Origin: an uncultured Lachnospiraceae bacterium
Lineage (GTDB): Bacteria > Bacillota > Clostridia > Lachnospirales > Lachnospiraceae
Direction: 5' to 3'
Length of the DNA: 64,000 nucleotides
Assembly (NCBI GenBank): GCA_947644545.1
Contig: CANRZW010000001.1
Span: 1-64,000 of the forward strand
Below the pieces are notes generated by a model. The model did not search any database. It was not told where the DNA came from and saw only the letters and a list, made by a program, of their open reading frames with translations. Shown piece by piece: positions 3,208 to 39,600 of this stretch (position 1 is the stretch's first letter; each line of letters starts with the position of its first letter). The position numbers were made by a program, and so were the translations under genes.

Positions 3208-4638
3208 CTAAAATTGAAAATATACAAACTGATTCTCACCTATATTCTGCAAAGAATATGCGATCAATATTATCCCCATAAGATAATAAATGCCCCAACG
3301 CAATACTTTTGGAAATTTGTCAAACTCCTTAAACGAATTTCTTTCTAAACTGATAAAATCACATATGGTCAGCAATAGTACAGATATCCCAATTCCAATA
3401 CATTCTTTTCTATCTATACCAACTGCCATAAGCGCATCCCTTATATATGTCATCGGTAAAGATATTCCACTGAACATATAACTTATCACATGAAATGCCT
3501 CCTGCCATGAAGATGCACGAAAGAAAATCCAAGCAAATGTAACAAATATAAATACAATACATGTAGCTATCAACCCATGTTTTCTTTTCTTGTTCAAGCC
3601 AAATACGTTTTCCACTACCTGCGCTAATCCATGTATCCCTCCCCAAAAGACAAAGGTCCCATTGGCACCATGCCACAGCCCGCTTAAAAGAAAAGTAATC
3701 ATCACATTAATGTACTTTCGAATTTTTCCCTTACGATTTCCTCCCAAAGGTATATACACATAATCACGAAACCACAACGACAATGAAATATGCCACTTCC
3801 TCCAAAATTCATTCACAGATGTAGAAAGATAAGGACTCTTAAAATTCGTCATCAATTCAATTCCGAATAGTCTGGCTGTCCCTATTGCAATATCTGAATA
3901 TCCTGAAAAATCACAATAAATCTGGATTGAAAAGAATACTGACACAAGTAGTAAAACACCGCCTTTGTATGAAAAGGGCTCATCAAATACCAGGTCAACG
4001 TAGTTCGCCAAAGTATCTGCAATAACAATCTTTTTAAAAAATCCCCATAACATCTGTCGCAATCCGTATATGGCATCTTCATACTGAAAAAAATGCTCTT
4101 TCCCTATTTGTGGGAGCAAATTCCCGGTTCTTTCTATAGGACCTGCAACCAATTGAGGAAAAAAGGATACAAACACGGCATATTTTCCAAAATTTCTTTC
4201 CGGTTGTACTGCTCCATGATAAACATCTATTACATAGCTCATTGTCTGAAATGTATAGAATGAAATCCCCACTGGTAGCAATAAGTTCAATGTAATTGGG
4301 TGTAACTGAATCGAAAGCGAACTCATTGTATCACAAAATATACCTATAAAAAAATTGTAATATTTAAAAAGAAATAGAATACCCAAACACACTACTGCCG
4401 TGCAGCAGAGAATTACTCGTTTATTTCTGTCTGATTTTGTCGCAGACAGAAATATGCCACAATAATAAGAAACCAATGTTGTAAAAAAAATCAAAAAAAC
4501 ATATTTGGCATTCCAACTCATGTAAAAATAATAGCTGGATATTAACAATACTATCCATTGATACTTCCGTGGTATCCACCAATAAATGATAAAAACAATT
4601 GGCAAAAAAATTGCAAATGAAAAAGAATTAAAACTCAT
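3208..4638 (-). CDS. MBOAT family O-acyltransferase (DltB/AlgI-like)
   Basis: Polytopic protein of 476 residues with about 10-11 hydrophobic helices. Conserved MBOAT signatures are clear: FFPQLVAGPIERT, QIYCDFSGYSDIAIG, NEFWRKWHISLSLWFRDY and LLSGLWHGANGTFVFWGG, with the catalytic His at 323 (WHGA) and a second conserved His at 283. The family transfers acyl groups from a cytoplasmic donor to an extracytoplasmic polymer such as alginate, teichoic acid or peptidoglycan. I chose the ATG at 4638 because the upstream ATG at 4665 has no ribosome site and would overlap the YfhO-like gene. The SGNH partner follows 8 nt downstream. O-acetylation of the local glycan is the likely role. Confidence 0.9.
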   Translation of the reverse strand: MSFNSFSFAIFLPIVFIIYWWIPRKYQWIVLLISSYYFYMSWNAKYVFLIFFTTLVSYYCGIFLSATKSDRNKRVILCCTAVVCLGILFLFKYYNFFIGIFCDTMSSLSIQLHPITLNLLLPVGISFYTFQTMSYVIDVYHGAVQPERNFGKYAVFVSFFPQLVAGPIERTGNLLPQIGKEHFFQYEDAIYGLRQMLWGFFKKIVIADTLANYVDLVFDEPFSYKGGVLLLVSVFFSIQIYCDFSGYSDIAIGTARLFGIELMTNFKSPYLSTSVNEFWRKWHISLSLWFRDYVYIPLGGNRKGKIRKYINVMITFLLSGLWHGANGTFVFWGGIHGLAQVVENVFGLNKKRKHGLIATCIVFIFVTFAWIFFRASSWQEAFHVISYMFSGISLPMTYIRDALMAVGIDRKECIGIGISVLLLTICDFISLERNSFKEFDKFPKVLRWGIYYLMGIILIAYSLQNIGENQFVYFQF

Positions 4639-4645
4639 TTGACCT

Positions 4646-7465
4646 TTACACCTTCTTTTTTTCAAAAACTAAAAACAAAACAAATAGTCCAAATCCCACA
4701 ATCGATATTAATAGTCCTGCTTTCAGATAAGGCGTCTCATATTGCAACTCTACCCTGTGTGTTCCCTCTGGTACGAGCACTCCCATATACATGATATTTC
4801 CCTGCAGCAGTTCTGCTTCCTTTCCATCAATAAAGCATCTCCAGCCAGATGAATACGGCACGGACAAGCACAATACCTTCTCCTTATTTAGCGCAATAGT
4901 GCCACTGATCTTATTCTCAGAAATATTTACCTGCTCCAGCATATTTTCCTTCAATATTTCTACACGTTCCCGCAGAAAATCCATGGGTTGCGCTATTACA
5001 TCTATTCCACTATATGAATATGTTCCCGTCTCTGAAAAGGATAACGTGATCGTATTTCTCTCCTGCTGCGAATAACCTAAATGAAATAAATACTCTGTAC
5101 GCCCATCATAAACATGTGCATAGTCGGGAAAGCACTGTAAACCTGTCAAATACTCATTGCAGCCTGCTTCCAGCCATATTCTGGATGGTCTTGTCCATGA
5201 TTGCTCTGTTATTCTGATGTTTTCTTTCTTCCATTTTGAATAGGTACTCCATTCTTCATCAGCAATAAACTCTGAGGGTTTTTGCGGTGTATAACTTAAC
5301 AAATTAAATTTCAAATATAATTCCCGTTCTGCAGGACAATCCAGCGACAGCGTTAACCTGGCATTCTCCCTTTTGACTATAATGCTGTCCTCATTAATTT
5401 CTATATTGCCATCTCCTGTCAGACTATATGGCAAAATTTCATGCATATATTGAGGTGTACTATGCTCTATTTCTACATCCTCACATATGGAATCCTCTAA
5501 GACAATACCATAAAGCATTGCCTGCTGCCGTTCCTCTACCGTCATGGCATCATATTCAGATGTCGTAAGATAAGTATCATAAGTGTATCCCAACGGTAAC
5601 ACCAAATCAGACTGGTATACGGTATACAGATTACCTTTTACACTCTCTTTTTTTCCAAGATATTTATATCCGTATGGCACATCCACTATATTCTCATACT
5701 CCCCATCACCGGTATGCACATAATATTTTGCCGATGCAAGAGCCATAAGTAATGCCCGCGACTGCAAATTCCTATATTCATAATTAGCGCCGCTGTAAGC
5801 TGAATTCCCTGTAAGATATGAAATTAAATAAGGCGGCAATACACTCCAGTACATGCTCGTAGTACTTTGATGTTCCGAGATCAGAGCATTCCGTCCCCCA
5901 TTGCTGCCTCCGTCTTTGAAATTTCCTTCATGGATATCCAGACGATAAAAAGACTCCTTCTCTCCTATTAACTCCCCAGCAAGCGCTGATATTTCCGTAA
6001 TATCATGAAAGCAGCCTCCTGCATCATGCGCTGTACCGGCATCCCAATCGCCTGCATCGCTATAAGCATATGCACTGTTACTCCAAATTCCCATCAAAAC
6101 CAGGACGATCAGCATCCCCTGTATACTCTGTTTCCAGTATCTGCCAACATGCTTTTGCAGCCATATACCTATTTCTCTGATATTCATAACCATAAACAAA
6201 CTCATCCAAAGAATCATACAGCTAACAAGCGTCGATTCTCTGCGTGATTCACGAAAAACAATGCATGCTCCGGAATAAAGCAGCGCCATTGTGCAAAGCA
6301 CCAATCTCTCCCTCTTATGAAACATTGCTAATTTCGGCAACATCTCCGCAAAGGCATATGACAAAAAAAAGGCGTATGCAAAACTCCAACGATTGCATAC
6401 ATAACCAAAACCATTAAATATATGTCCAAAAAACGGTAATAAAAGAAACAGGGTCATCAATCCGATAATCCATTGCAGCCATCTATGCCCTTTTCCTCTT
6501 ATATACAATCCTCCGAATCCCAGCATTATTATAGGTGAAATCCCAATATACGTCCAATTTCCGGGAGTCTCATTAGAAATATAAGCGCCTATAAAAGCTA
6601 CATAATATTTAAATGGATACAACAGATCATATTTATAGCCCGAATTAAGTCTGCTACTGGACAGAAAAGCCATAGCCGAAGGCAGAAAAATAACTGCCGC
6701 CATAGCTATCCCTATCATTCCCATTCCCGCAAGCTTCAAACTAACCATTATTAAATACCTTCGTTTATTCTCCCGACTGTTTCCTGCAGTGCAACGGACA
6801 ATAACATATAAAATAACAATCAAAACTGTCTGATAAAAAAAATAATAATTACTGACGCAGGACACGAAAACCATAAAGATAAATGCTGATGATCGTTCTT
6901 TTCTAAAAATCTTTTCTACACCAATCAATAACAACGGAAGACAAATCATAGGCGTGGCAAAAAAAGGATGGCGCATAGCCGCATAAAGAGCAAATCCACA
7001 AAATGTGTACCCCAGACTCGCACATACTGAGGAAAACTCGTCCAGATGCATTTTCCTTGCATACAAACAGAAGGCAATTCCGGATAAATATAAACGAACA
7101 AGAATAAGAATGCTATACATAATATCCGCATATTTTACCGGTGAGACAACAGAAAACAATGCAATTGGATCACCAAATACATAATAAGATAACGTAGTAA
7201 TAATATCAGCGCCATATCCAATTCCAAACTCCCACATGGGAATTACCAACTCACCGGATTCTATCAGATTCCTGATCATGCCCCGGGTGTATGTGCCTAA
7301 ATATACAAAAGCATTATAATGCTGGTATAGTCCATCCTTAGCATGGACCAGTGATTTCCCCAACCTGATAAACGGGAAAAACACAATTATTGCCATAATA
7401 ACAAATAACATAGTATACAGCAAATATGTTTTTCTCTTTTCGTATTTATGCTTATGATCTATCAT
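4646..7465 (-). CDS. YfhO family large membrane protein
   Basis: About 939 residues. The N-terminal half has roughly 12 transmembrane helices, beginning with YLLYTMLFVIMAIIVFFPF and followed by an acidic first loop (HAKDGLYQHYNAFVYLG). A large extracytoplasmic region of about 400 residues follows, and the protein ends in a final helix and a KKK tail. The segment VPYSSGWRCFIDGKEAELLQ followed by PEGTHRVELQYETPYLKAGL is the YfhO hallmark. Family members resemble GT-C transferases, and YfhO proteins have been linked to sugar modification of teichoic acids or polymers using lipid-phosphate sugars. The start at 7465 follows GGTGGAG at good spacing; an ATG at 7522 with AAGGA close by is possible. 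The MBOAT gene follows 7 nt downstream, suggesting joint polymer decoration. Confidence 0.85.
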   Translation of the reverse strand: MIDHKHKYEKRKTYLLYTMLFVIMAIIVFFPFIRLGKSLVHAKDGLYQHYNAFVYLGTYTRGMIRNLIESGELVIPMWEFGIGYGADIITTLSYYVFGDPIALFSVVSPVKYADIMYSILILVRLYLSGIAFCLYARKMHLDEFSSVCASLGYTFCGFALYAAMRHPFFATPMICLPLLLIGVEKIFRKERSSAFIFMVFVSCVSNYYFFYQTVLIVILYVIVRCTAGNSRENKRRYLIMVSLKLAGMGMIGIAMAAVIFLPSAMAFLSSSRLNSGYKYDLLYPFKYYVAFIGAYISNETPGNWTYIGISPIIMLGFGGLYIRGKGHRWLQWIIGLMTLFLLLPFFGHIFNGFGYVCNRWSFAYAFFLSYAFAEMLPKLAMFHKRERLVLCTMALLYSGACIVFRESRRESTLVSCMILWMSLFMVMNIREIGIWLQKHVGRYWKQSIQGMLIVLVLMGIWSNSAYAYSDAGDWDAGTAHDAGGCFHDITEISALAGELIGEKESFYRLDIHEGNFKDGGSNGGRNALISEHQSTTSMYWSVLPPYLISYLTGNSAYSGANYEYRNLQSRALLMALASAKYYVHTGDGEYENIVDVPYGYKYLGKKESVKGNLYTVYQSDLVLPLGYTYDTYLTTSEYDAMTVEERQQAMLYGIVLEDSICEDVEIEHSTPQYMHEILPYSLTGDGNIEINEDSIIVKRENARLTLSLDCPAERELYLKFNLLSYTPQKPSEFIADEEWSTYSKWKKENIRITEQSWTRPSRIWLEAGCNEYLTGLQCFPDYAHVYDGRTEYLFHLGYSQQERNTITLSFSETGTYSYSGIDVIAQPMDFLRERVEILKENMLEQVNISENKISGTIALNKEKVLCLSVPYSSGWRCFIDGKEAELLQGNIMYMGVLVPEGTHRVELQYETPYLKAGLLISIVGFGLFVLFLVFEKKKV

Positions 7466-7570
7466 GATATCTCCACCTGCATAAAAACCTGACTCTTCTA
7501 TCATTTTATAGGCTATTTTCATCTTTCCTTAATTATGCTATACAAAATAGTGATATAATTCTCTGCCGGC

Positions 7571-8686
7571 TTAGCGCTCCCAGCTTTTAATATACTCGCA
7601 CATTGCATTGTAATATTCTCTTATACTGTTCCAGGCCCTCTTATAGATAAATCCATGCGTTTGAACATTCATATCCAAATAATGCTCTATCTTATTCTGA
7701 AATGCAATTTCCGGATTCCTTGCCTGTAACGCAACTTGGATCCTGCCCGTTCGCTCTCCTGCTATTCTTATCCACGTTTCTGGCTCTATATTCTCCAGTC
7801 CAAGCGCATCATTAACTCCTCTTCCACGAGCGTCTTCATTTATCAAAATTGATTGTTTTCCTCTGCTTAAATTATAAATGTGTGCGTGTACACGGAAACC
7901 AATATGAAACTTACATGTATCATAAATAGCAAATCCCTTGGAACCATTTGCAATACAAACCTGTTCTACCCCCCCCCCCCATTTTCCCAATGCATCCGTT
8001 AAAGTTTTTAAATGCTTATTATACTTTGCATTCAAACCTACGTCATTTACTTTGTCTCTATGCACAACATATATAATTGGTGAATCCGGAAATATGCTTC
8101 TGACGGCCCTCACTAAAGGAATTACAAAATCTATATTTTTCTCATTCGCCGGATCTGAAATACATATCGTTTCCTCGCCTGCTGTCAATTGTTTTCCCAT
8201 ATCTGAATATTGCAAAAACTCAAGACAATACCATGCCGGACACCCTGTCATAATGCAATCATCATATCCATTTTGCTGCAAGACCCTTACCGTATGCCAA
8301 TCTCTGCAACTTACAGGTGCATGCTCAGACATTTTACTGATCAATGCTCTCATCTGATCAGTAAACTTATACGTAGTATATAATTCATCAATATGCTTAC
8401 CTTTCCACCCTAATCCCAAAGCATACACGGGACACTTGATCAAAGACAGATTTTCTACCAACGGCATGGCAACAGGATACAAATTCGGTTGTAGCAAAGG
8501 TCCTCCCGCCATGACAATAAAATCGCATTGATTTATTCTGTCTATTTCACAGTCAAGAGGAATATTTCTTTTAAACAATCGAATCTCAGCGCTCGGATAA
8601 TGGTACTTAATCAATTCCAGGCTTCTTTTCTCTATCAAAAAATCTCCGGCATTTTTTACAGCTCCGGACAAGACACCAATCCTCAT
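7571..8686 (-). CDS. Polysaccharide pyruvyl transferase family protein with internal poly-G tract
   Basis: A 371-residue member of the CsaB-like pyruvyl transferase family, which adds ketal-linked pyruvate from PEP to a sugar residue. Supporting segments are GAVKNAGDFLIEKRSLELI at the N-terminus, VMAGGPLLQPNLYP near 60, LGLGWKG, and the late IGFRVHAHIYNLSRGKQSIL motif containing the conserved RxHxxxxN-type region. Residues 236-240 (W-G-G-G-V) are encoded by a run of 12 G on the coding strand. The gene is in frame with 12; 11 or 13 G would truncate it. Its ATG overlaps the TGA of the ABC exporter gene by 4 nt, so expression is probably coupled. The acceptor may be the nonulosonic-acid-containing glycan built by the preceding genes. 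Confidence 0.8.
   Translation of the reverse strand: MRIGVLSGAVKNAGDFLIEKRSLELIKYHYPSAEIRLFKRNIPLDCEIDRINQCDFIVMAGGPLLQPNLYPVAMPLVENLSLIKCPVYALGLGWKGKHIDELYTTYKFTDQMRALISKMSEHAPVSCRDWHTVRVLQQNGYDDCIMTGCPAWYCLEFLQYSDMGKQLTAGEETICISDPANEKNIDFVIPLVRAVRSIFPDSPIIYVVHRDKVNDVGLNAKYNKHLKTLTDALGKWGGGVEQVCIANGSKGFAIYDTCKFHIGFRVHAHIYNLSRGKQSILINEDARGRGVNDALGLENIEPETWIRIAGERTGRIQVALQARNPEIAFQNKIEHYLDMNVQTHGFIYKRAWNSIREYYNAMCEYIKSWER
7969..7980 (-). repeat. 12-nt homopolymeric G tract (C on + strand), candidate contingency repeat
   Basis: Twelve consecutive C on the plus strand, G in the coding direction, inside the pyruvyl transferase gene. In the present state the frame reads TGG GGG GGG GGG GTA and stays open. 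Eleven G would place a TAG directly after the tract. Thirteen G would run into a TGA about 16 codons later. Slipped-strand mispairing at such tracts is the standard mechanism of phase-variable surface glycosylation in other bacteria. No other tract of this length appears in the window. Confidence 0.9.
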
Positions 8687-10503
8687 AAGCTGCTCCCCCC
8701 TATACCTACGTCAAATATCTCTTCCTTCCGACGTACTTTAGCATGTCCATCCGCAATTTCATAAATGACATCACAGTTTTGAATCGTCGTCAATCTATGT
8801 GCGACTATAATCAACGTTTTATGCCTTTGTAAAGAATTAATTGCTTCCATTACCGCCGTCTCCGTATCCGTATCCAACGCTGATGTTGCTTCATCCAGAA
8901 TCAATATTGGAGGATTATAATAAAGCGCCCTGGCAATTGCAACCCTTTGACGTTGCCCTCCTGAAAATCTGACCCCTCTGTCCCCTACAACTGTATCCAA
9001 TCTATCAGGCAGTCCTGATACAAATTCCTTCAATTGAGCCTGTTCTAATGCCTGCCATACCAGATTGTCATCTGGTTCGTCAATGCCAAACGCCACATTA
9101 TTTCTAATTGTATCATCCGTCAGATAGACCGTCTGCGGAATATATCCCACGCATTCAGCCCACCTTTTTGACATTGTTCTGATGTCTTTTCCTTCCAGTT
9201 TAATACATCCTTGCTGCGGCTTATAAAGCCCTAAAATAATATCCGCCAGTGTTGTCTTGCCTGCACCTGAATGTCCGATAAATCCTACCGACGTTCCTTG
9301 CCTGATCCGAATGCTAACTCCACTCAGCACTTCACGTTCGGCAGCCGGATACTTCCAATGAATATTCTCTATTAATAGATAGCCGTCTGCTGTATTTATA
9401 GAGTTCGCTTCAACATCCCCCTCCTCCAACAGCGAAATAACCGTTTCCTTCTCTTTTTTCTCTGCTTCTCTGACTTCCACCAGATTCTGATAAGCTTTAT
9501 TTAAAGATGGTGTATAATAAACAATCTGATTAAAACAACTTGTAATTCTACCAAGTGAAGGAAGAATCCTAAATGCCGCCATGGCAAAAGAAGCCATCTT
9601 CGGGAGAAATTCCGCCGAATCACTTCCACTATACATCCGTAACCCTACCGCTAAAATAAGTCCGACTACACATACCCCTTCTATAATATATGCCGGGCTT
9701 TCTGATGCAACTGTCTGCCCTATCGTCGCTCTCTGCTGCTTATAAAAAGCCTGCTCATAACGCTTCACGAAAAACTGCTGCCGCTGCATGGCAATAACTT
9801 CTTTAATTCCCTGAAATGCCTGCAAAGAATGCTTATTAACTTCCTTATTACTCGCCCGAAATTCTAAACCCAAACGACGCATAGGTTTACGAAATCCAAT
9901 GACCACAACAACAAAACAAACCAGTGCCAATACAACAACACATGTTGCCATCATTGTATCCGTTTTCATAATAAACAGTATAATTGCTATCGAAGTAAAT
10001 AATTCTGCAAATACTCGAAAAGCATTATACATAATCTGATAAACTGCACTGACATCTCCAAGTACACCTCTTAACAAATCTCCAGTGTTAACCTGCGCAA
10101 AGAAAAGATATCCTCTTTTCATATAAGATTGCATCATCAAAACACTTAATTCACGCTGTACTTTGGTTGCATATCTGACTCTACAATAAGACAACAAGAC
10201 AAGATATAGATTTTTAACAATATAAACAACTGCAATGCCTAACCCCAAAAGCAATACCAGCTGCCCTGATGTTTGAATCTGAAAGCGTTCAATAAACGGC
10301 TCAATATAACGATTATTCATAAGCTCCTGTGGTGTAACCATTGCCTGCACAAAAGGAACGATGACAGATACTCCCATTGTCTCCACAACAGCTCCAGCCA
10401 AAGTCATAAACAATATAAAAACGCCCAGCTGCTTCTGCCTCTTCGTCAGAATGAACTGAAATTTACTCCATATATCCTTTACTTTTTGAAATTCCTGCAG
10501 CAT
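8683..10503 (-). CDS. ABC exporter, MsbA/PglK-like (lipid-linked oligosaccharide flippase candidate)
   Basis: A 606-residue half-transporter with fused membrane and ATPase domains. Six helices span about residues 20-310, starting with the PglK-like segment VVETMGVSVIVPFVQAM. The nucleotide-binding domain carries Walker A GHSGAGKTT (410-418), signature SGGQR (514-518), Walker B ILILDEATSALD (DEATSALD at 537-544) and the His switch VAHR. PglK-type exporters flip lipid-linked oligosaccharides; MsbA-like relatives export lipids or peptides. The position between glycosyltransferases and a pyruvyl transferase supports the glycan role. It follows the KxHP GT-B gene by 14 nt and overlaps the pyruvyl transferase by 4 nt. 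It is one of three similar exporters in the window. Confidence 0.85.
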   Translation of the reverse strand: MLQEFQKVKDIWSKFQFILTKRQKQLGVFILFMTLAGAVVETMGVSVIVPFVQAMVTPQELMNNRYIEPFIERFQIQTSGQLVLLLGLGIAVVYIVKNLYLVLLSYCRVRYATKVQRELSVLMMQSYMKRGYLFFAQVNTGDLLRGVLGDVSAVYQIMYNAFRVFAELFTSIAIILFIMKTDTMMATCVVVLALVCFVVVVIGFRKPMRRLGLEFRASNKEVNKHSLQAFQGIKEVIAMQRQQFFVKRYEQAFYKQQRATIGQTVASESPAYIIEGVCVVGLILAVGLRMYSGSDSAEFLPKMASFAMAAFRILPSLGRITSCFNQIVYYTPSLNKAYQNLVEVREAEKKEKETVISLLEEGDVEANSINTADGYLLIENIHWKYPAAEREVLSGVSIRIRQGTSVGFIGHSGAGKTTLADIILGLYKPQQGCIKLEGKDIRTMSKRWAECVGYIPQTVYLTDDTIRNNVAFGIDEPDDNLVWQALEQAQLKEFVSGLPDRLDTVVGDRGVRFSGGQRQRVAIARALYYNPPILILDEATSALDTDTETAVMEAINSLQRHKTLIIVAHRLTTIQNCDVIYEIADGHAKVRRKEEIFDVGIGGSSL

Positions 10504-12046: not shown

Positions 12047-13084
12047 CTAAACCATCTCCCAAGTCAGAACCGTATCCTCACTGGCATCACATGTCATCGT
12101 TCTTCCAAGCACAATTTCTATGTCTTTCGGAGAAATACCGGTTCCGGGACGCTTCGCCATGACATCCTTTTCCGTTATCACTTCACCTTTTTTCATATCT
12201 CTTGTCAATACCAAAGATCTTCTCGCTTCTCTTCTTGGCACTAATTCGCAGGGCAGTACTTCTTTCTTCTCCTGTCCGCTGACTTGTGTGATCAGATCAA
12301 AGTTGCGAATTGCCTTAGCAAAATCAACGGGATCACCCGCATGATAATGATCATTTCCCTGTAAAGTCTTATCCAGTGTAAAGTGTTTCTCAATAATCTC
12401 TGCTCCATACAGATATGCCGTTGTCAATACTGTCATCGTCTCATCCGGTAGCGTATGATCACTGTAGCCAACTCTCAGATCAGGAAAGATCCGTTTCAAT
12501 GTCCTGATCATATTCAGATTTGCATCCTCATATTTGCAGGGATAGGATAATACGCAATGCAACAGACATATTTCCGGACACCCGGCTTCTTCCAGCACGC
12601 GGACTGCCTCCTCTACTTCAGAAAGATAAGCAGCGCCTACCGATAAATAGACCGGCTTCCCTTTTGCCGCAATATATCTCAAAAAAGGATGATTTGTCAA
12701 ATCAGAAGATGAGATTTTAAAAACATCAACCATATCCGCCAGATAATCTACCGCATCATAATCAAACGGCGTAGACATAAAATCAATCTGCAGCTCTTTA
12801 CAGTATCTACATAATTCACCATATTCTTCTGCATTAAAGTGATCAAACTTTAAAAACAATTCATGCTGTGTCTTTGTCGGCTCTTTTGTTGTATCCCAAT
12901 ATGCAGGCGAGTTCTTGGACACAATCGTATCCGCCTTATAGGATTGAAACTTCACTGCATCAATCCCAGCCTGCTTAGCCTCATAAATGTACTTTTTGGC
13001 AGCCTCCAATGGTGTTATCTGCAGTTCTCTCGCAGTATCGTAGTAATTAACACCTATTTCAGCAATCAAATATGGTTTTTTCAT
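12047..13084 (-). CDS. neuB: NeuB-family nonulosonic (sialic-acid-like) acid synthase
   Basis: A 345-residue enzyme with the NeuB TIM barrel (about 1-270) and a C-terminal SAF/antifreeze-like domain (about 285-345, RRSLVLTRDMKKGEVITEKD). The family condenses PEP with an N-acylated hexosamine to give a nine-carbon 2-keto-3-deoxy acid. Seen motifs are LIAEIGVNY, DAVKFQSYKADTIVSK, FMSTPFDYDAVDYL, DVFKISSSDLTN and EKHFTLDKTLQGNDHYHAGD. The GNDHYHAGD stretch differs from the GPDHKASLEP-like sequence I associate with classical NeuB, so substrate specificity (Neu5Ac, legionaminic, pseudaminic or other) cannot be assigned. AAGGAG precedes the ATG. The gene follows the synthetase/PseG fusion by 32 nt; no NeuC is in the window. 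Confidence 0.85.
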   Translation of the reverse strand: MKKPYLIAEIGVNYYDTARELQITPLEAAKKYIYEAKQAGIDAVKFQSYKADTIVSKNSPAYWDTTKEPTKTQHELFLKFDHFNAEEYGELCRYCKELQIDFMSTPFDYDAVDYLADMVDVFKISSSDLTNHPFLRYIAAKGKPVYLSVGAAYLSEVEEAVRVLEEAGCPEICLLHCVLSYPCKYEDANLNMIRTLKRIFPDLRVGYSDHTLPDETMTVLTTAYLYGAEIIEKHFTLDKTLQGNDHYHAGDPVDFAKAIRNFDLITQVSGQEKKEVLPCELVPRREARRSLVLTRDMKKGEVITEKDVMAKRPGTGISPKDIEIVLGRTMTCDASEDTVLTWEMV

Positions 13085-13116: not shown

Positions 13117-14769
13117 TTATTGCCTACTTAAATCAGGTTTGTCAATACCTAATATAATGTTTCTGACTCGCATGATGCCATCCGTCAGTCTTAATCGTGT
13201 CATACTTTCTTTCATCTGCTGCCTGATCTGAGGTGTATGCATTAACCAGATCAAGGTCTCTCTTAACGTATCTTCCTCTACATTAACACCGTTTCCAAGA
13301 TTAATAAATCCATTTTTCATATAACCGAACTCATGCATGGTTTCCCTGTCATTCTGTGCAAGAATGATCGTCGGCACTTTCATCACAGCCAACTCATACA
13401 TTGTTCTGCCCTGAGAGGAGATCGCAATATCTGCTTCCACCATATATTTTGACATCATCCTGACATCCTTAATCACGCGAATATCCTGTTCGCACTGCTC
13501 TACAGACTGCATAAAGGTTTCATCCCGATCAAACCCAAGCCCAAGCACGAATTGATATACGACAGACCTGTCTGTCGGCATTTTCTTTATCACGTTTAAT
13601 ACCTTCTCGGTATACCGCCCTGGATCTGTTCCGCCAAAAACAATTAAAACGTTCTTTACCTCTTTCGAGAATTCTTTCGTCCTGGCAATCAGAAATTCAT
13701 CCCGCAGACAATAATATTTATGTCCCCAATAATACTGTTCTCCCTGCACTTTCTTTTCATACAAGGCATTAATGACCGCATCCGCCAGACCACCCCCTTC
13801 TCCCATATCCTCAATATTAACCACTCTGCCTGCCAAAGGTTTCACCTTAAGCATATATTCTTTGGCAGTATCCAAGACATCATTAATCAGTACATCCGGC
13901 TTCTCTTCCTCTAATAAGCTGATAAACTCCTGTTCATCCTTTACTACCCTGTATTTCAAAAAACGTTCCTGAATTTTTTGTATACCAAGCTGTGATTTCT
14001 CGGACAGAACAATCAATACATCATGCTCTATCAAATTGTTTACCAACAAAATACTTCGATAGATATGTCCTAACCCTATTTCCGGATATCCTTCGGTCCT
14101 GATGAGAATCTTCCTGCGCGACAGGCGCATCTCACAGATTGCCCAATCAGCATAGTCATCAATATCCACTGACTCTTCATCCGGCACTTCATATAAATTT
14201 ATCTTCTCTCCAAGCCTTGAATTCTCTGTGACAAACTCTCTTTTCGTAATCACAAAAGCGCCTGTCTCCATGAGATGTTTCGGAAGGTATTGCCTGTTCA
14301 GTCGCTTTTCGTAAAGCGGAAAATAGCTTCCCTTCTCTTCTCCCCACGAAAGATGCGGTCTGTTTACCGCGCTGATCATCGTGTCCATCTCCCCGTGAAG
14401 GAATTCTGCAATAGCACTGTCTAAAGTTTCAGCCTTTAGTAATGGAGAGGTCGGCTGCATGGTAATTACAAGATCGGCTTCTCCTGAATCTTTTTCACAG
14501 CTGCAAGTTGCGTGATAGATGACCGGGTCTAATGTAACAGCATCTGCTCCAAGGCACTCCGGCCTCTTGATCACCTTTGCCCCATAGAGATAGGCTATAC
14601 CTGCTATCTCCTCATCATCAGTGCTTACCAATACATCTGTAATATAACTGGATTGTAATGCATTAAGAATAGCATACGCGATTAAAGGCTTTCCATTAAG
14701 GAATCTGACATTTTTCCTGGGAATCCCCTTAGATCCCCCTCTTGCCGGTATAATTGCTATTATCTTCAT
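13117..14769 (-). CDS. Fusion: CMP-nonulosonate cytidylyltransferase + PseG-like UDP-sugar hydrolase
   Basis: 550 residues with two enzymes. Residues 1 to about 213 are a NeuA/PseF/SpsF-type cytidylyltransferase with IIPARGGSKGIPRKN at the N-terminus, MQPTSPLL and a closing VDIDDYADW. Residues from about 217 are PseG-like: ILIRTEGYPEIGLGHIYRS holds the conserved GH (about 234-235), followed by LIVFGGTDPGRYTEKVL and AISSQGRTMYELAVMKVPT. PseG removes UDP from a 2,4-diacetamido-trideoxyhexose before NeuB-type condensation, so one chain would hold the step before and the step after NeuB. I chose ATG 14769 (AGAGGA upstream) over 14820. Dehydratase, aminotransferase and N-acetyltransferase genes for this pathway are not in the window. 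Confidence 0.85.
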   Translation of the reverse strand: MKIIAIIPARGGSKGIPRKNVRFLNGKPLIAYAILNALQSSYITDVLVSTDDEEIAGIAYLYGAKVIKRPECLGADAVTLDPVIYHATCSCEKDSGEADLVITMQPTSPLLKAETLDSAIAEFLHGEMDTMISAVNRPHLSWGEEKGSYFPLYEKRLNRQYLPKHLMETGAFVITKREFVTENSRLGEKINLYEVPDEESVDIDDYADWAICEMRLSRRKILIRTEGYPEIGLGHIYRSILLVNNLIEHDVLIVLSEKSQLGIQKIQERFLKYRVVKDEQEFISLLEEEKPDVLINDVLDTAKEYMLKVKPLAGRVVNIEDMGEGGGLADAVINALYEKKVQGEQYYWGHKYYCLRDEFLIARTKEFSKEVKNVLIVFGGTDPGRYTEKVLNVIKKMPTDRSVVYQFVLGLGFDRDETFMQSVEQCEQDIRVIKDVRMMSKYMVEADIAISSQGRTMYELAVMKVPTIILAQNDRETMHEFGYMKNGFINLGNGVNVEEDTLRETLIWLMHTPQIRQQMKESMTRLRLTDGIMRVRNIILGIDKPDLSRQ

Positions 14770-14832
14770 AATTTTCCTCTTTTCTGCGCACATTCCTGTT
14801 AAACTTTCTGTTCCATTCATGGCAGATCTGTA

Positions 14833-16299
14833 TCAAGCACGCATAGACACAGAGTTCTTCCCGCTTAGCTTTTCCTTAATCCATGAGACGGCATTTTGCA
14901 ATGCATCCGACTTCCAGAAGTCAACATTCTGAATCCCGGAAGTTTCTTTATCATAATCCCGGATCTGTTCTGCAAGCTGATCGACATTTTCAAAAAGCTG
15001 CCCATATCCACTCTCACACAGCCTTCTCATCTCCGGAGCGACGCAGTAATCATATATATACGTATCCAGTCCGAAACAAAGTCCTTCATAGATTGCGGTT
15101 GTAGTAAACCCACCTACCTGCATGCTGCACATGGCAAAATATTCATATAAGTTCTTACTGTTATTATCAATTACTTCCAAACCGGAAGCATACAACTCCG
15201 GATATCTGTCCCGCCACCCCAAAAATTCATTTGGATGCAGTTTATAAAGGATACGATATTCTTTCTGTGGCAACAGCTGCCGCAACTGCACTGCTATCGC
15301 CGACAATCTTTCACCGACAGGCCCCTGAGATAAAAAAAGTATTATCCTGGGATCTGTTTCCCGCATTGTTACCTCTTTATATCGCTTCGACTGACGTTCC
15401 AGATACGGATACCCCACTGCAAACTGACAGTTCTCTGGTATCGGTCCCCTTGCCGTGTCAATCCAGAAGTCGGAAAATGCCAGGAAATAATCCGGCGCCT
15501 GCTGTAATACCACACCCTGCGCATAATTATATCCAATATGTTCTCTGCCGGTTGCTCCATGCTGTAGTTCAACCGTTGGAATGCTCATTGTCTTTGCAAT
15601 CTCATTAACGATCATACAATCTGCATTATAGCCAACTACTTCTATGATCATCTTCGGATGCAATTTTCTGAGCAGTTTGTCGTATGCTCTGCATTTATAC
15701 TGATAATCATAATAACCTGCCAAAGCAAGCTGTATAAAGTACTCCATCTCGCAGTCCACTTCATATAGCTCCATAAGCTCTTTCAATGGCTCCACCAGTA
15801 TCTGTTCTATCCTGCTTCGGATCTTTCGATATTTGTCTAAACGCAGTTTCATCTCCACAAGATAAAATAATGTTTTCTTTAATTCCACACGATCTGTATA
15901 GTATAAATGTCGTGTTCTGGGCGGTCTGTAATGCCTTCCATGATGCGGGCGCTCTAAACTTATACTGTCAGACAAACATTCTGCTATCTGATCCGTATAA
16001 ATACACTCATATTGGCCATCAATGAGAACCCGGCGTTCATGGCATAAGAACAGTACATTCACATGTCGGCCACTTGTCCAACTATGAAAAAATGCATTGC
16101 CAAACATACCTGCAATTCGCCACAAACGTTCTAACACACTTTCCTTGGGCATACTATGTCCGGTGTTCAAAGCATATTTCTTCCGTTCAATTTCCCATAT
16201 AAATTCAGCGCGTTCATATACCCACAAATGAAATCCGTCTATTTCCTTGTTGTAAAGATCATATTTTACCTCAGTATCAATCACATAATCCAGATTCAT
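14833..16299 (-). CDS. GT-B-like capsule transferase with KxHP motif, function unknown
   Basis: 488 residues, no membrane helices. The C-terminal half resembles capsule/CDP-glycerol-type GT-B enzymes: PTVELQHGATGREHIGYNY, then IILFLSQGPVGERLS, then RILYKLHPNEFLGW (KxHP) and VGGFTTTAIYEGLCFG, a Ser/Thr-rich donor-site loop. The N-terminal 200 residues are basic and rich in Arg and Tyr and match nothing I recognise. It begins inside the GT4 gene (23 nt overlap) and ends 63 nt before the CMP-sugar synthetase fusion. With the KxHP protein at 10518 it brackets the two nonulosonic-acid genes, so both are candidates for the transferase using CMP-nonulosonate. Another nucleotide-sugar donor is equally possible. 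Confidence 0.55.
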   Translation of the reverse strand: MNLDYVIDTEVKYDLYNKEIDGFHLWVYERAEFIWEIERKKYALNTGHSMPKESVLERLWRIAGMFGNAFFHSWTSGRHVNVLFLCHERRVLIDGQYECIYTDQIAECLSDSISLERPHHGRHYRPPRTRHLYYTDRVELKKTLFYLVEMKLRLDKYRKIRSRIEQILVEPLKELMELYEVDCEMEYFIQLALAGYYDYQYKCRAYDKLLRKLHPKMIIEVVGYNADCMIVNEIAKTMSIPTVELQHGATGREHIGYNYAQGVVLQQAPDYFLAFSDFWIDTARGPIPENCQFAVGYPYLERQSKRYKEVTMRETDPRIILFLSQGPVGERLSAIAVQLRQLLPQKEYRILYKLHPNEFLGWRDRYPELYASGLEVIDNNSKNLYEYFAMCSMQVGGFTTTAIYEGLCFGLDTYIYDYCVAPEMRRLCESGYGQLFENVDQLAEQIRDYDKETSGIQNVDFWKSDALQNAVSWIKEKLSGKNSVSMRA

Positions 16300-17470
16300 T
16301 CTTTTTCTGCACCCTGCCTTTATTATATATCAGCTCCTGATAAATTTCCATTATATTCTCTGCATTAACTCTACTGCTGAATCGATCTTTAGTCATGTGA
16401 TATGCACATTCTCCCATTCGCTGTATGTTTCCTGTATGATTAAGATAACGGCTCATCTTATCTGCCAAATCCGTTCCATTTCCCCTGCAATACAGATATC
16501 CGTTCTCACCGTCTTTGATCAATTCAGGCGTCCCTCCGCTGTTTGACCCAATAACCGGATTAGAACTCATCATCGCTTCTACAGTAACTCTCCCAAATGC
16601 CTCACAGCGGGAACATACAAGTTCAACATCCATCTTCCTGCGTATAGATGGTAAGTCTGTCCGATATCCCAAAAATGACACATATTCCTCAATCTGCATT
16701 TGTTTAGTCATCTTACAAAGCATCTCTGAGTCACCTGGTCCGGCAATCGACAAATGTAAATTATGAAATCCCCGCTCCACCAATAATGCAACCGCCTCAA
16801 TTGCTTCTTCCTGCCCTTTTTCCTCACTGATCCTGCCACTGATCAGAAATTGCACTATATCCTTTTGACCCTTTTCCCATTTCTTCTGATATAGATTCTC
16901 TTCTCCCACACCATTATAAATAACCCTGATCCGACTCGCAGACAATTTATCTTTATAGCATTCCTGTACTGCTTCGGATATGGCTATGATATACTCACTA
17001 TGATCCTGCATAAACCGAAATATCCGACCAGATCCCCACACATCAGTAAATTCAAAATCTTCCTTCCCAAATTCCCTGATATGCCAGACATGCGGCACAT
17101 GCATCATTGCGGCAAGGATTCCTCCTGTATTCAACACACTTGAATTCGTATGAATCATATCTATTGCATATTGTCTTACCACCTTACGCAAGCGAAATGC
17201 ACATATATAATTATACAACACCAATATCTTATAAATCCACTTCTTCACAAATGTCGCTACAGAATTAGCGCCTGGCGCTACCATCCACCAAAAAGAATGC
17301 TGATACAATACCGGTATTCCCCTCTTATGAAGTTCATCTACCAAAAATCCTTCTTTAATAGGCACCACTACATAAATATTATGCTCTTTAGCAAAATGAT
17401 CAATCATACCCAGCAGCGATAGATTTGCTCCTCCCATCCTGCTCTCATGTGCAATATACAAAATATTCAT
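16277..17470 (-). CDS. GT4 family glycosyltransferase
   Basis: 397-residue GT-B retaining transferase. N-terminal ESRMGGANLSLLGMIDHF forms the acceptor-domain glycine loop. IYNGVGEENLY and FLISGRISEEKGQEEAIEA mark the linker and start of the C-terminal domain. CEAFGRVTVEAMMSSNPVIG supplies the EX7E donor-binding motif and GSNSGGTPELI follows it. Basic residues at the C-terminus (NKGRVQKKNE) could aid membrane contact. It starts 30 nt after the SGNH gene and overlaps the next GT-B gene by 23 nt, placing it at the head of the nonulosonic-acid module. Donor and acceptor cannot be read from sequence. Confidence 0.85.
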   Translation of the reverse strand: MNILYIAHESRMGGANLSLLGMIDHFAKEHNIYVVVPIKEGFLVDELHKRGIPVLYQHSFWWMVAPGANSVATFVKKWIYKILVLYNYICAFRLRKVVRQYAIDMIHTNSSVLNTGGILAAMMHVPHVWHIREFGKEDFEFTDVWGSGRIFRFMQDHSEYIIAISEAVQECYKDKLSASRIRVIYNGVGEENLYQKKWEKGQKDIVQFLISGRISEEKGQEEAIEAVALLVERGFHNLHLSIAGPGDSEMLCKMTKQMQIEEYVSFLGYRTDLPSIRRKMDVELVCSRCEAFGRVTVEAMMSSNPVIGSNSGGTPELIKDGENGYLYCRGNGTDLADKMSRYLNHTGNIQRMGECAYHMTKDRFSSRVNAENIMEIYQELIYNKGRVQKKNESGLCD

Positions 17471-38300: not shown

Positions 38301-38358
38301 TCGGCTGCCTTTCTGCCTCTTTATGCATTATGGCGTCCTCGACGCAGACGCTTCGTAC

Positions 38359-39540
38359 TTATTCATGGCACTCGTTCCAGATCCTGCGGATCTCCCTGCC
38401 GGCTTCCCCTGCCCGTGCGCAGTACTCCGGCATCATGCTCTTAAGCCTCTCCCGGATCTCCCCTTCCCGCTCCATCATCCAATCGTAAGCGCCGATCAGT
38501 TCATCCGGGCTCTCCAGCGCCTGCACCGGAAGGACATAGTTCTCTTCCGTGCCAAACAGGTCTCTCGCAATGCCCCGTGCCTTCACGGAATAGCCGACCA
38601 CAAGCGTGGGCACACGGCTGGAATAAGCGGCGATCGTCGCATGTGTCCTGGCGCCTATGAACGCCCTGCACTGCGAGATAATGTATTTCAGTTTCCGACA
38701 GGACATATCCGGAAAGATCATCACTCTTTCCTCCGCCTCAAATCCCCGGTAAAGCTCCTGCAGCGTCAGCCTGTCATCGTTGTAATTCCACATCACATGC
38801 GGGATCAGCGCCACGCAGTTATCCGTCGTCTGCAGGATATGGTCGATCAGCCTGCGGTAATTGGCCAGCGTGATCCCCGTCGACTTTTCATGCCGCACGA
38901 TCATCGGGCTGACATTGATCCCGATCGTCCTGCCCACGGCAAACCGCTCCGGCAGCTTGATCTCCTCCGCCTCCAGCGCAAATGCCGGATCCGGAAACAA
39001 TCTTACGTTATCCACGATCCCCGCTTCGTGCAAAGCCTTTGTGGTGATAGACTCCCGGGGCGTAATCAGGGCATACCGCCTCATATCTTCCACCACTGCC
39101 GGATCTTTAAGCAGTTCCGGCTCCAGGGAACATCCCCACAATATCGTCTTCGCGCCTGCCCGCACAAAGGTACTGTTGGCGACGATGGCCTCCTTTTTCG
39201 AGATCTCATAACAATACATATCGCCGCCTGTGGAAATGTAGAGCGGTGCACGGTTTTTGCCCAGAACCGCACGAAACCGGTACCGCATAAAAGATTCCGG
39301 ATCATGGAACAGCGCCCGCCATGCATAATACCAGACATGCGCAAAGAAATGCTCCGCGATCTTCCTCTCCTGCAGAATATCACACAGAGGTTCTAACGAA
39401 TAGAACCTGTCCTCCTTCTCACTGTTAGTCACTAACAGCTTCGGAAGATCCTCTATCATATGACAGGTACTGTTAATGATCGCCTCGCAGCCATGGTTCC
39501 CGCTGCCGCCATGCAAATATAACACGATCCGGTCATTCAT
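38359..39540 (-). CDS. Polysaccharide pyruvyl transferase family protein
   Basis: 393 residues. YLHGGSGNHGCEAIINST starts the protein; LYISTGGDMYCYEISKKEAI, AGAKTILWGCSLEPELLKDP, and GARTHATIAAYSSRVPTLVV followed by GYSVKARGIARDLFG are diagnostic of the family, including the RxHxxxxA-type active-site segment. It would add a pyruvate ketal to a hexose of the repeat unit, giving negative charge. Unlike the pyruvyl transferase at 7571 it contains no homopolymer tract. Some relatives have other roles, such as colanic acid WcaK-like proteins of unclear reaction, so the exact activity is not certain. It is 58 nt from the Wzx gene. Confidence 0.85.
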   Translation of the reverse strand: MNDRIVLYLHGGSGNHGCEAIINSTCHMIEDLPKLLVTNSEKEDRFYSLEPLCDILQERKIAEHFFAHVWYYAWRALFHDPESFMRYRFRAVLGKNRAPLYISTGGDMYCYEISKKEAIVANSTFVRAGAKTILWGCSLEPELLKDPAVVEDMRRYALITPRESITTKALHEAGIVDNVRLFPDPAFALEAEEIKLPERFAVGRTIGINVSPMIVRHEKSTGITLANYRRLIDHILQTTDNCVALIPHVMWNYNDDRLTLQELYRGFEAEERVMIFPDMSCRKLKYIISQCRAFIGARTHATIAAYSSRVPTLVVGYSVKARGIARDLFGTEENYVLPVQALESPDELIGAYDWMMEREGEIRERLKSMMPEYCARAGEAGREIRRIWNECHE

Positions 39541-39600
39541 CCTATGCAGTCACATCCTTTCAATACTCTCTTCACAGCCGGCCTGCCTCACGCCTGCCGC

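Follow-up and report, generated by a model that had tools for sequence, protein, structure and literature searches.

A G12 tract as a probable phase-variation switch in a polysaccharide pyruvyl transferase gene of a Lachnospiraceae genome

Main

Within the window (the whole 64-kb stretch of DNA that was analysed), a polysaccharide pyruvyl transferase gene of a Lachnospiraceae genome contains 12 consecutive G's, and this run is very probably a contingency (phase-variation) tract at which slippage switches the gene on and off. We regard this as the best explanation because long tracts form a class of their own in the genome, because such tracts are found about equally in and out of frame in relatives, and because tract length differs between species. 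Mechanistically, replication slippage would add or remove single G's, such that lengths of 9, 12 or 15 G would give a full-length enzyme (ON), whereas other lengths would bring a stop at the tract or ~16 codons later, at the cost of the C-terminal third with its R-x-H motif (OFF). We infer that tract length varies within a population at positions 7969-7980, and that the switch changes the pyruvylation of the surface glycan made by the surrounding locus. Many such tracts occur in the lineage besides the G12 run. The preliminary description of this DNA had also proposed likely phase variation, a claim now supported by the genome's hump of long runs, the frame mix in relatives and length differences at orthologous sites elsewhere in the genus; its remark that few poly-G switches are known in Clostridia does not hold for this group, with G8-TA present in 70 of the 77 genus genomes searched and G9-TA in 82 of the 196 genomes sampled from the order.

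Reading frame at the G12 tract

The tract reads as C12 on the forward strand and as G12 on the opposite, coding strand, within the pyruvyl transferase gene, where it occupies nucleotides 707-718 of the 371-aa ORF (Table 1). It is the sole G/C run of at least 7 bases in the window: the tally of C runs stands at 193 for C4, 37 for C5 and two for C6, with nothing longer except the one C12, and a tally that is empty between C6 and a single C12 argues that the tract is not a product of chance. The gene is computed to be open at 9, 12 and 15 G (370, 371 and 372 aa), to stop at the tract at 8, 11 and 14 G (238, 239 and 240 aa), and to stop soon after it at 10 and 13 G (254 and 255 aa). Gain or loss of a single G is therefore enough to truncate the product, to 255 or 239 aa versus 371, and R265-V-H267-A-H269 is lost in both off-states (11 G and 13 G), being beyond the tract. 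The preliminary description had read 12 G with the gene open, which the sequence and the reverse-strand ORF at 7571-8686 (371 aa) confirm, and had placed the tract at residues 236-240 of 371, in agreement with the computed codons; its predictions of a TAG at the tract after loss of a G, of a stop ~16 codons on after gain of one, and of RVHAH missing from either product all match the computed lengths and the position of the motif. A run of 12 G inside a reading frame, in a genome with a hump of runs of 9 or more, is of the length of a slipped-strand contingency locus.

Table 1 Features of the window, ordered by position
Feature	Position	Strand	Remark
MBOAT O-acyltransferase (PF03062)	3208..4665	-	after YfhO
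YfhO-family membrane protein (PF09586)	4646..7522	-	48 bases downstream of pyruvyl transferase by longest ORF
Polysaccharide pyruvyl transferase (PF04230), 371 aa	7571..8686	-	open at 12 G; E 1.7e-17, residues 12-284
R265-V-H267-A-H269	7880..7894	-	equated with CsaB R306/H308 by pattern, not alignment
TAG	7966..7968	-	immediately 3' of tract; stop when tract is 11 (or 8, 14) G
G12 tract	7969..7980	-	codons 236-240 of pyruvyl transferase gene; predicted slipped-strand switch
ABC transporter (PF00664 + PF00005)	8683..10503	-	end overlaps pyruvyl transferase start
NeuB-family protein with SAF domain (PF03102, PF08666)	12047..13084	-	
Cytidylyltransferase (PF02348) fused to PF04101 domain	13117..14820	-	
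Glycosyltransferase group 1 (PF00534)	16277..17470	-	
Second PF04230 match of the window, 396-aa open frame	38587..39282	-	without tract

The pyruvyl transferase and its locus

Functionally, the protein is a putative transferase of pyruvate from PEP to a glycan, as judged from its PF04230 match, which scores 64.7 bits against a curated cut-off of 25.3 and covers profile positions 1-278 of 280. Relatives are few: among 397 genomes of the family, four (the own genome included) hold one at E ≤1e-20, and the closest match in another genome has 40% identity. R-V-H is found in all five aligned relatives, its equivalence to the R-x-H pair of CsaB being by pattern only. A sequence search of solved structures with the protein gave no credible relative (best E 0.12), a protein search of the genome_contigs collection gave no match, and the quality of a single-sequence structure model was too low for it to be of use (mean pLDDT 37.7). 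In the alignment with the five relatives both flanks of the tract match in the present frame, and the 12-G frame is thus the one that fits the family. The GGGV of the window protein corresponds to GRGI, ETGI, EQDV, EHGV and EQGV in the relatives, and just ahead of it the window protein has one extra residue; a G9 tract, lacking this residue, would fit as well. At the nucleotide level, the stretch examined of the two nearest relatives has no G/C run longer than 6 (L226) or none of 5 or more (L227), and runs of at least 8 are absent from two others (L032 and L033). The genome itself holds four PF04230 genes, with a run of at least 7 in only one of them, and the second of these genes in the window offers an internal contrast, the longest G/C run in 38301-39600 being 4. 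The three other PF04230 genes of the genome might cover for the one switched off.

By its content, the locus around the gene is a surface-glycan locus: NeuB, cytidylyltransferase, glycosyltransferases and another MBOAT lie upstream of the pyruvyl transferase, alongside the ABC transporter, the YfhO protein and the MBOAT protein of Table 1. This arrangement also bears on how switching would matter. The YfhO gene starts 48 bases past the pyruvyl transferase on the same strand, with the MBOAT gene next, and an off-state could exert polarity on it; that switching would matter mainly through polarity on these two downstream genes, rather than through pyruvyl transfer, is nevertheless a reading that we consider unlikely.

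Long G runs as a class in the genome

The genome is a 4.07-Mb draft of 83 contigs, in which G runs were counted on both strands. Seven runs have length 7, three have length 8, twelve length 9 and three length 10, with one each at 11, 12 and 17, so that runs of at least 9, of which there are 18, make up a distinct hump above the three of 8 and seven of 7; it is this separate hump that sets long G runs apart as their own class. Seven of the 18 fall within intact frames, on the sense strand, in genes for the pyruvyl transferase, a solute-binding lipoprotein, flagellin, a methyltransferase, an AraC regulator, an acyltransferase and a histidine kinase, and one (L050) splits a gene out of frame. Others sit ahead of start codons, 5 and 10 bases before ATG (L049 and L047) or 9 bases before the TTG start of a response regulator (L036), and one (L038) is flanked by TTGACA and TAAAAT, 18 bases apart; the remaining six are without clear placement.

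Several of these sites deserve individual mention. In the flagellin gene, an in-frame G9 (C9:72353-72361, L041) lies between the conserved N and C domains. At C55:266-274 (L050), a gene of ~700 codons is out of frame at G9, and its longer piece is without a Pfam family. The G17 run at C39:17206-17222 (L048) has no TA flank and no clear gene, and is possibly an artefact. The run at C7:62297-62307 (L038 4998-5008) is placed between TTGACA and a TATAAT-like hexamer, an arrangement seen, with the hexamers 16-19 bases apart and tracts of G9-G11, in L063, L065, L085, L092, L146, L147 and L224 in addition to L038, with L092 and L146 being orthologous sites. Tracts so placed look like length-switchable promoters.

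An open frame of the genome encodes a MutL-type domain, a point against the switch: it would lower slippage relative to organisms without mismatch repair, such as Campylobacter, which is not known to have it.

Frame states of tracts in the genus

Exact G9 runs are found in at least 66 of 76 genus genomes, with a pattern that required non-C at −9 and non-G at +9 and that therefore misses some runs. From among at least 150 matches listed from 34 genomes, which do not include those richest in G9 runs, we drew 110 loci (30 automatically, 80 chosen by hand), of which 109 were classified after one duplicate was set aside. The frame test called for at least 60 open codons on each side of the run, on the G strand, for which 46 distinct G9 tracts qualified. 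The frame was kept in 21 of these and changed at the tract in 25, against 209 in frame and 38 changed among 247 G4 runs from the same loci (Fisher p = 7e-8); the other short-run controls from these loci were in frame in 23/31 (G5) and 3/3 (G6) cases, and a 225-kb control from the own genome in 346/369 (G4), 63/65 (G5) and 4/5 (G6). With a 100-codon threshold, 13/31 G9 tracts of relatives were in frame versus 108/121 G4 runs (Fisher p = 1e-7), with G5 at 17/19. Eight of the 25 out-of-frame G9 cases may mark junctions between genes, a start codon lying at most 20 bases downstream of each; with such near-start cases removed, 17/38 G9 tracts were out of frame versus 23/232 G4 runs (Fisher p = 1e-6). 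The weakest control takes the better of both strands, giving 29/45 G5 runs in frame versus 27/64 G9 tracts in the relatives (p = 0.03), with 403/446 (G4) and 71/75 (G5) in the own genome. The G strand was the sense strand in 53 of the 64 coding G9 tracts of relatives.

Five off loci were searched piecewise, and in only one was the same family found on both sides of the tract: in L181, an acyltransferase profile is matched at 3-94 before the G9 and at 121-323 after it in another frame, showing a single gene broken at its tract. Three had a family on one side only (MBOAT in L062, a methyltransferase below the curated cut-off in L212, CotH in L112), and L205, searched on both sides of its tract, yielded no family. 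A family scan of 35 hand-chosen tract loci, seven of which gave none, returned MBOAT, three acyltransferases, methyltransferases, a sulfotransferase, WcbI, DegT and flagellin, along with DUF6020, DUF6541 and PMT_2 membrane proteins, LRR and other surface-type proteins, solute-binding proteins or lipoproteins, LytTR and other regulators, and DUF975.

Tract length between species

Across the loci examined, 166 distinct tracts of 8 or more comprise nine of length 8, 130 of length 9 (enriched by selection), 17 of length 10, seven of length 11 and one each of lengths 12, 13 and 17. Length differs at orthologous positions: a site in a response-regulator operon carries G11 in L061 and G10 in L124, L125 and L127 over ~510 aligned bases, and, over ~235-245 aligned bases, G10 in L116 and L119 and G9 in L121 (a partial match), while a second orthologous pair has G13 versus G11 over 122 bases. 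The response-regulator tract (L061 1503) lies near the end of its gene, where in L061 a 498-codon frame stops at TAA after the tract, and two tracts lie close together in L116 (3298 and 3330) and in L119. Not every tract differs, since three sister species share a G9 at a kinase/regulator junction where other genus members are without a tract. There (L113-L115, the sites of L143-L145), G9-TAAAA-ATG joins a histidine kinase and a response regulator, and tract length sets the frame in which the kinase runs into a junction that is ordinary in the other members.

Taken against these data, the possibility that the G12 run is a neutral or fixed homopolymer, coding for a glycine turn and no more variable than other sequence, appears quite improbable. 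It draws on the gene being in frame, as are five of the six coding tracts of the own genome testable by open frames (the G12 tract included), a count against switching; on four of five relatives having a glycine or two close to the site; and on the G9 kept by the three sister species at another site. It is opposed by the separate hump of long runs, by the 25 of 46 coding G9 tracts of relatives that are out of frame, by the differences in tract length between species, and by the restriction of the tract to one of four PF04230 genes. Similarly doubtful is action at the RNA level, in which polymerase or ribosome slippage would yield a steady mix of full-length and truncated protein and genomic length would be of little weight. 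A 12-G run should permit RNA slippage. Recoding at Neisseria contingency loci is named in a reference title in the accessible part of PMC9187656; the mixture of frames across genomes is, on the other side, a DNA-level signal, and RNA-level slippage can coexist with a DNA contingency tract. An assembly or sequencing artefact in the run or its length, for which the 83-contig draft, the suspect G17 and the capacity of wrong consensus lengths in drafts to scatter the relatives' frames could be adduced, is highly improbable given that the homologous frame continues only with 9, 12 or 15 G, that tracts recur at orthologous sites of separate genomes and that a TA flank is common to them.

The TA flank

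TA stands directly after 15 of the 18 own-genome runs of 9 or more, exactly as TARAAY after eight, and among 146 distinct genus G9 runs listed it comes next in 83, with CA in that place in 23 and TG in 12; after exact G6 runs, a control from the own genome only with a pattern that ends in non-G, TA is next in 1 of 73 (p = 2e-13 and 2e-18). The TAG at the end of the G12 tract supplies this flank as well. The flank occurs both inside and between genes, in 16/24 in-frame, 11/28 out-of-frame and 14/26 intergenic loci of the 109 classified. Across the 77 genus genomes, G8-TA occurs 727 times versus 146 for its mirror, with TA higher in 67 genomes, lower in two and equal in eight; of the 196 genomes from the order, only 5 of the 33 from other genera of the same family have G9-TA. 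No uniform TA rule applies, given that eight G9-rich genomes (G005, G010, G012, G014, G019, G096, G097 and G099, with 309 G9 pattern matches in total and 26-61 each) show a weaker excess, 118 G8-TA versus 51 mirror, compared to 609 versus 95 in the other 69.

Several candidate causes were considered. Stop-codon selection was rejected as the only cause, given that the flank is also commonly TAT, TAC or CA, and so was a promoter −10 box, given that within-gene tracts also carry TA and the sixth base is not fixed; no single codon phase accounts for the flank. With regard to a mobile-element footprint, G9-TAAAA in the three sister species faces an ordinary junction elsewhere in the genus, and the site looks more like a replacement than a clean insertion. 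Stacking energies of TA, CA and TG steps are weak, and the idea that weak stacking promotes slippage fits the order TA > CA > TG. Against it, flanking sequence is described in the available part of PMC4965091 as without influence on tract slippage in C. jejuni. No single expression step accounts for the TA flank, the most unusual feature of these tracts. It is possible, and we put it forward only tentatively, that the genus runs a Campylobacter-scale set of poly-G switches that share a sequence-specific context (G(9+), a pyrimidine-A step and A-rich DNA) across coding, ribosome-binding and promoter positions, with something making or keeping tracts beside such a site. If so, the tracts would go back to the action of an enzyme, to a step in replication or repair or to some founding event, rather than to independent gain of a tract in each gene.

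Relation to known systems and significance

In scale, the set resembles that of Campylobacter jejuni NCTC11168, for which the available text of PMC4965091 gives 29 tracts of 7 or more, most of them in reading frames, with surface-modifying enzymes prominent and lengths of G8-G11 discussed; the present genome has 28 G runs of at least 7. It differs in belonging to a Lachnospiraceae genome with a MutL-type domain, in its strong TA flank, and in tracts also at ribosome-binding and promoter-like positions. The sortase pili of Bifidobacterium breve, as portrayed in the accessible part of PMC9187656, are alike in that a Gram-positive gut commensal turns a surface structure on and off by G-tract replication slippage, though in pilus genes and in another phylum, as opposed to a pyruvyl transferase within a many-locus set. 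The ketalpyruvyltransferase CsaB of Paenibacillus alvei also has an R-x-H pair in its C-terminal part, with R306 and H308 as potential PEP-binding residues; its H308A and H308R variants are inactive, H308K and H308S active, and the portion of PMC10435577 available to us mentions no switch; the R-x-H pair of the present protein is equated with it by pattern. More generally, coding homopolymers have been presented as regulators of prokaryotic genes, with Clostridia among the groups sampled (PMC2831843, as far as its accessible parts go), in a paper whose main text is without the terms firmicutes, lachno, poly-g, gc-rich and mismatch repair. Among the listed openly licensed PMC papers, none described poly-G phase variation in Lachnospiraceae or a phase-variable pyruvyl transferase. 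The mechanism is already known; what looks new, judging by open papers, is the host group, the target and the flank that the tracts share.

Were the G12 tract and its counterparts to act as switches, gut Clostridia would diversify surface glycans, flagella, lipoproteins and sensors by fast bet-hedging in the style of Campylobacter and Neisseria. Pyruvate ketals carry charge and serve as anchors of surface proteins in CsaB systems, and for these reasons on/off pyruvylation would be a plausible way to change phage adsorption. Mutants of csaB in a Bacillus resist a phage, according to the part of PMC3545897 available. Switching of this kind, if real, would have a bearing on phage resistance, on antibody recognition and on differences between strains.
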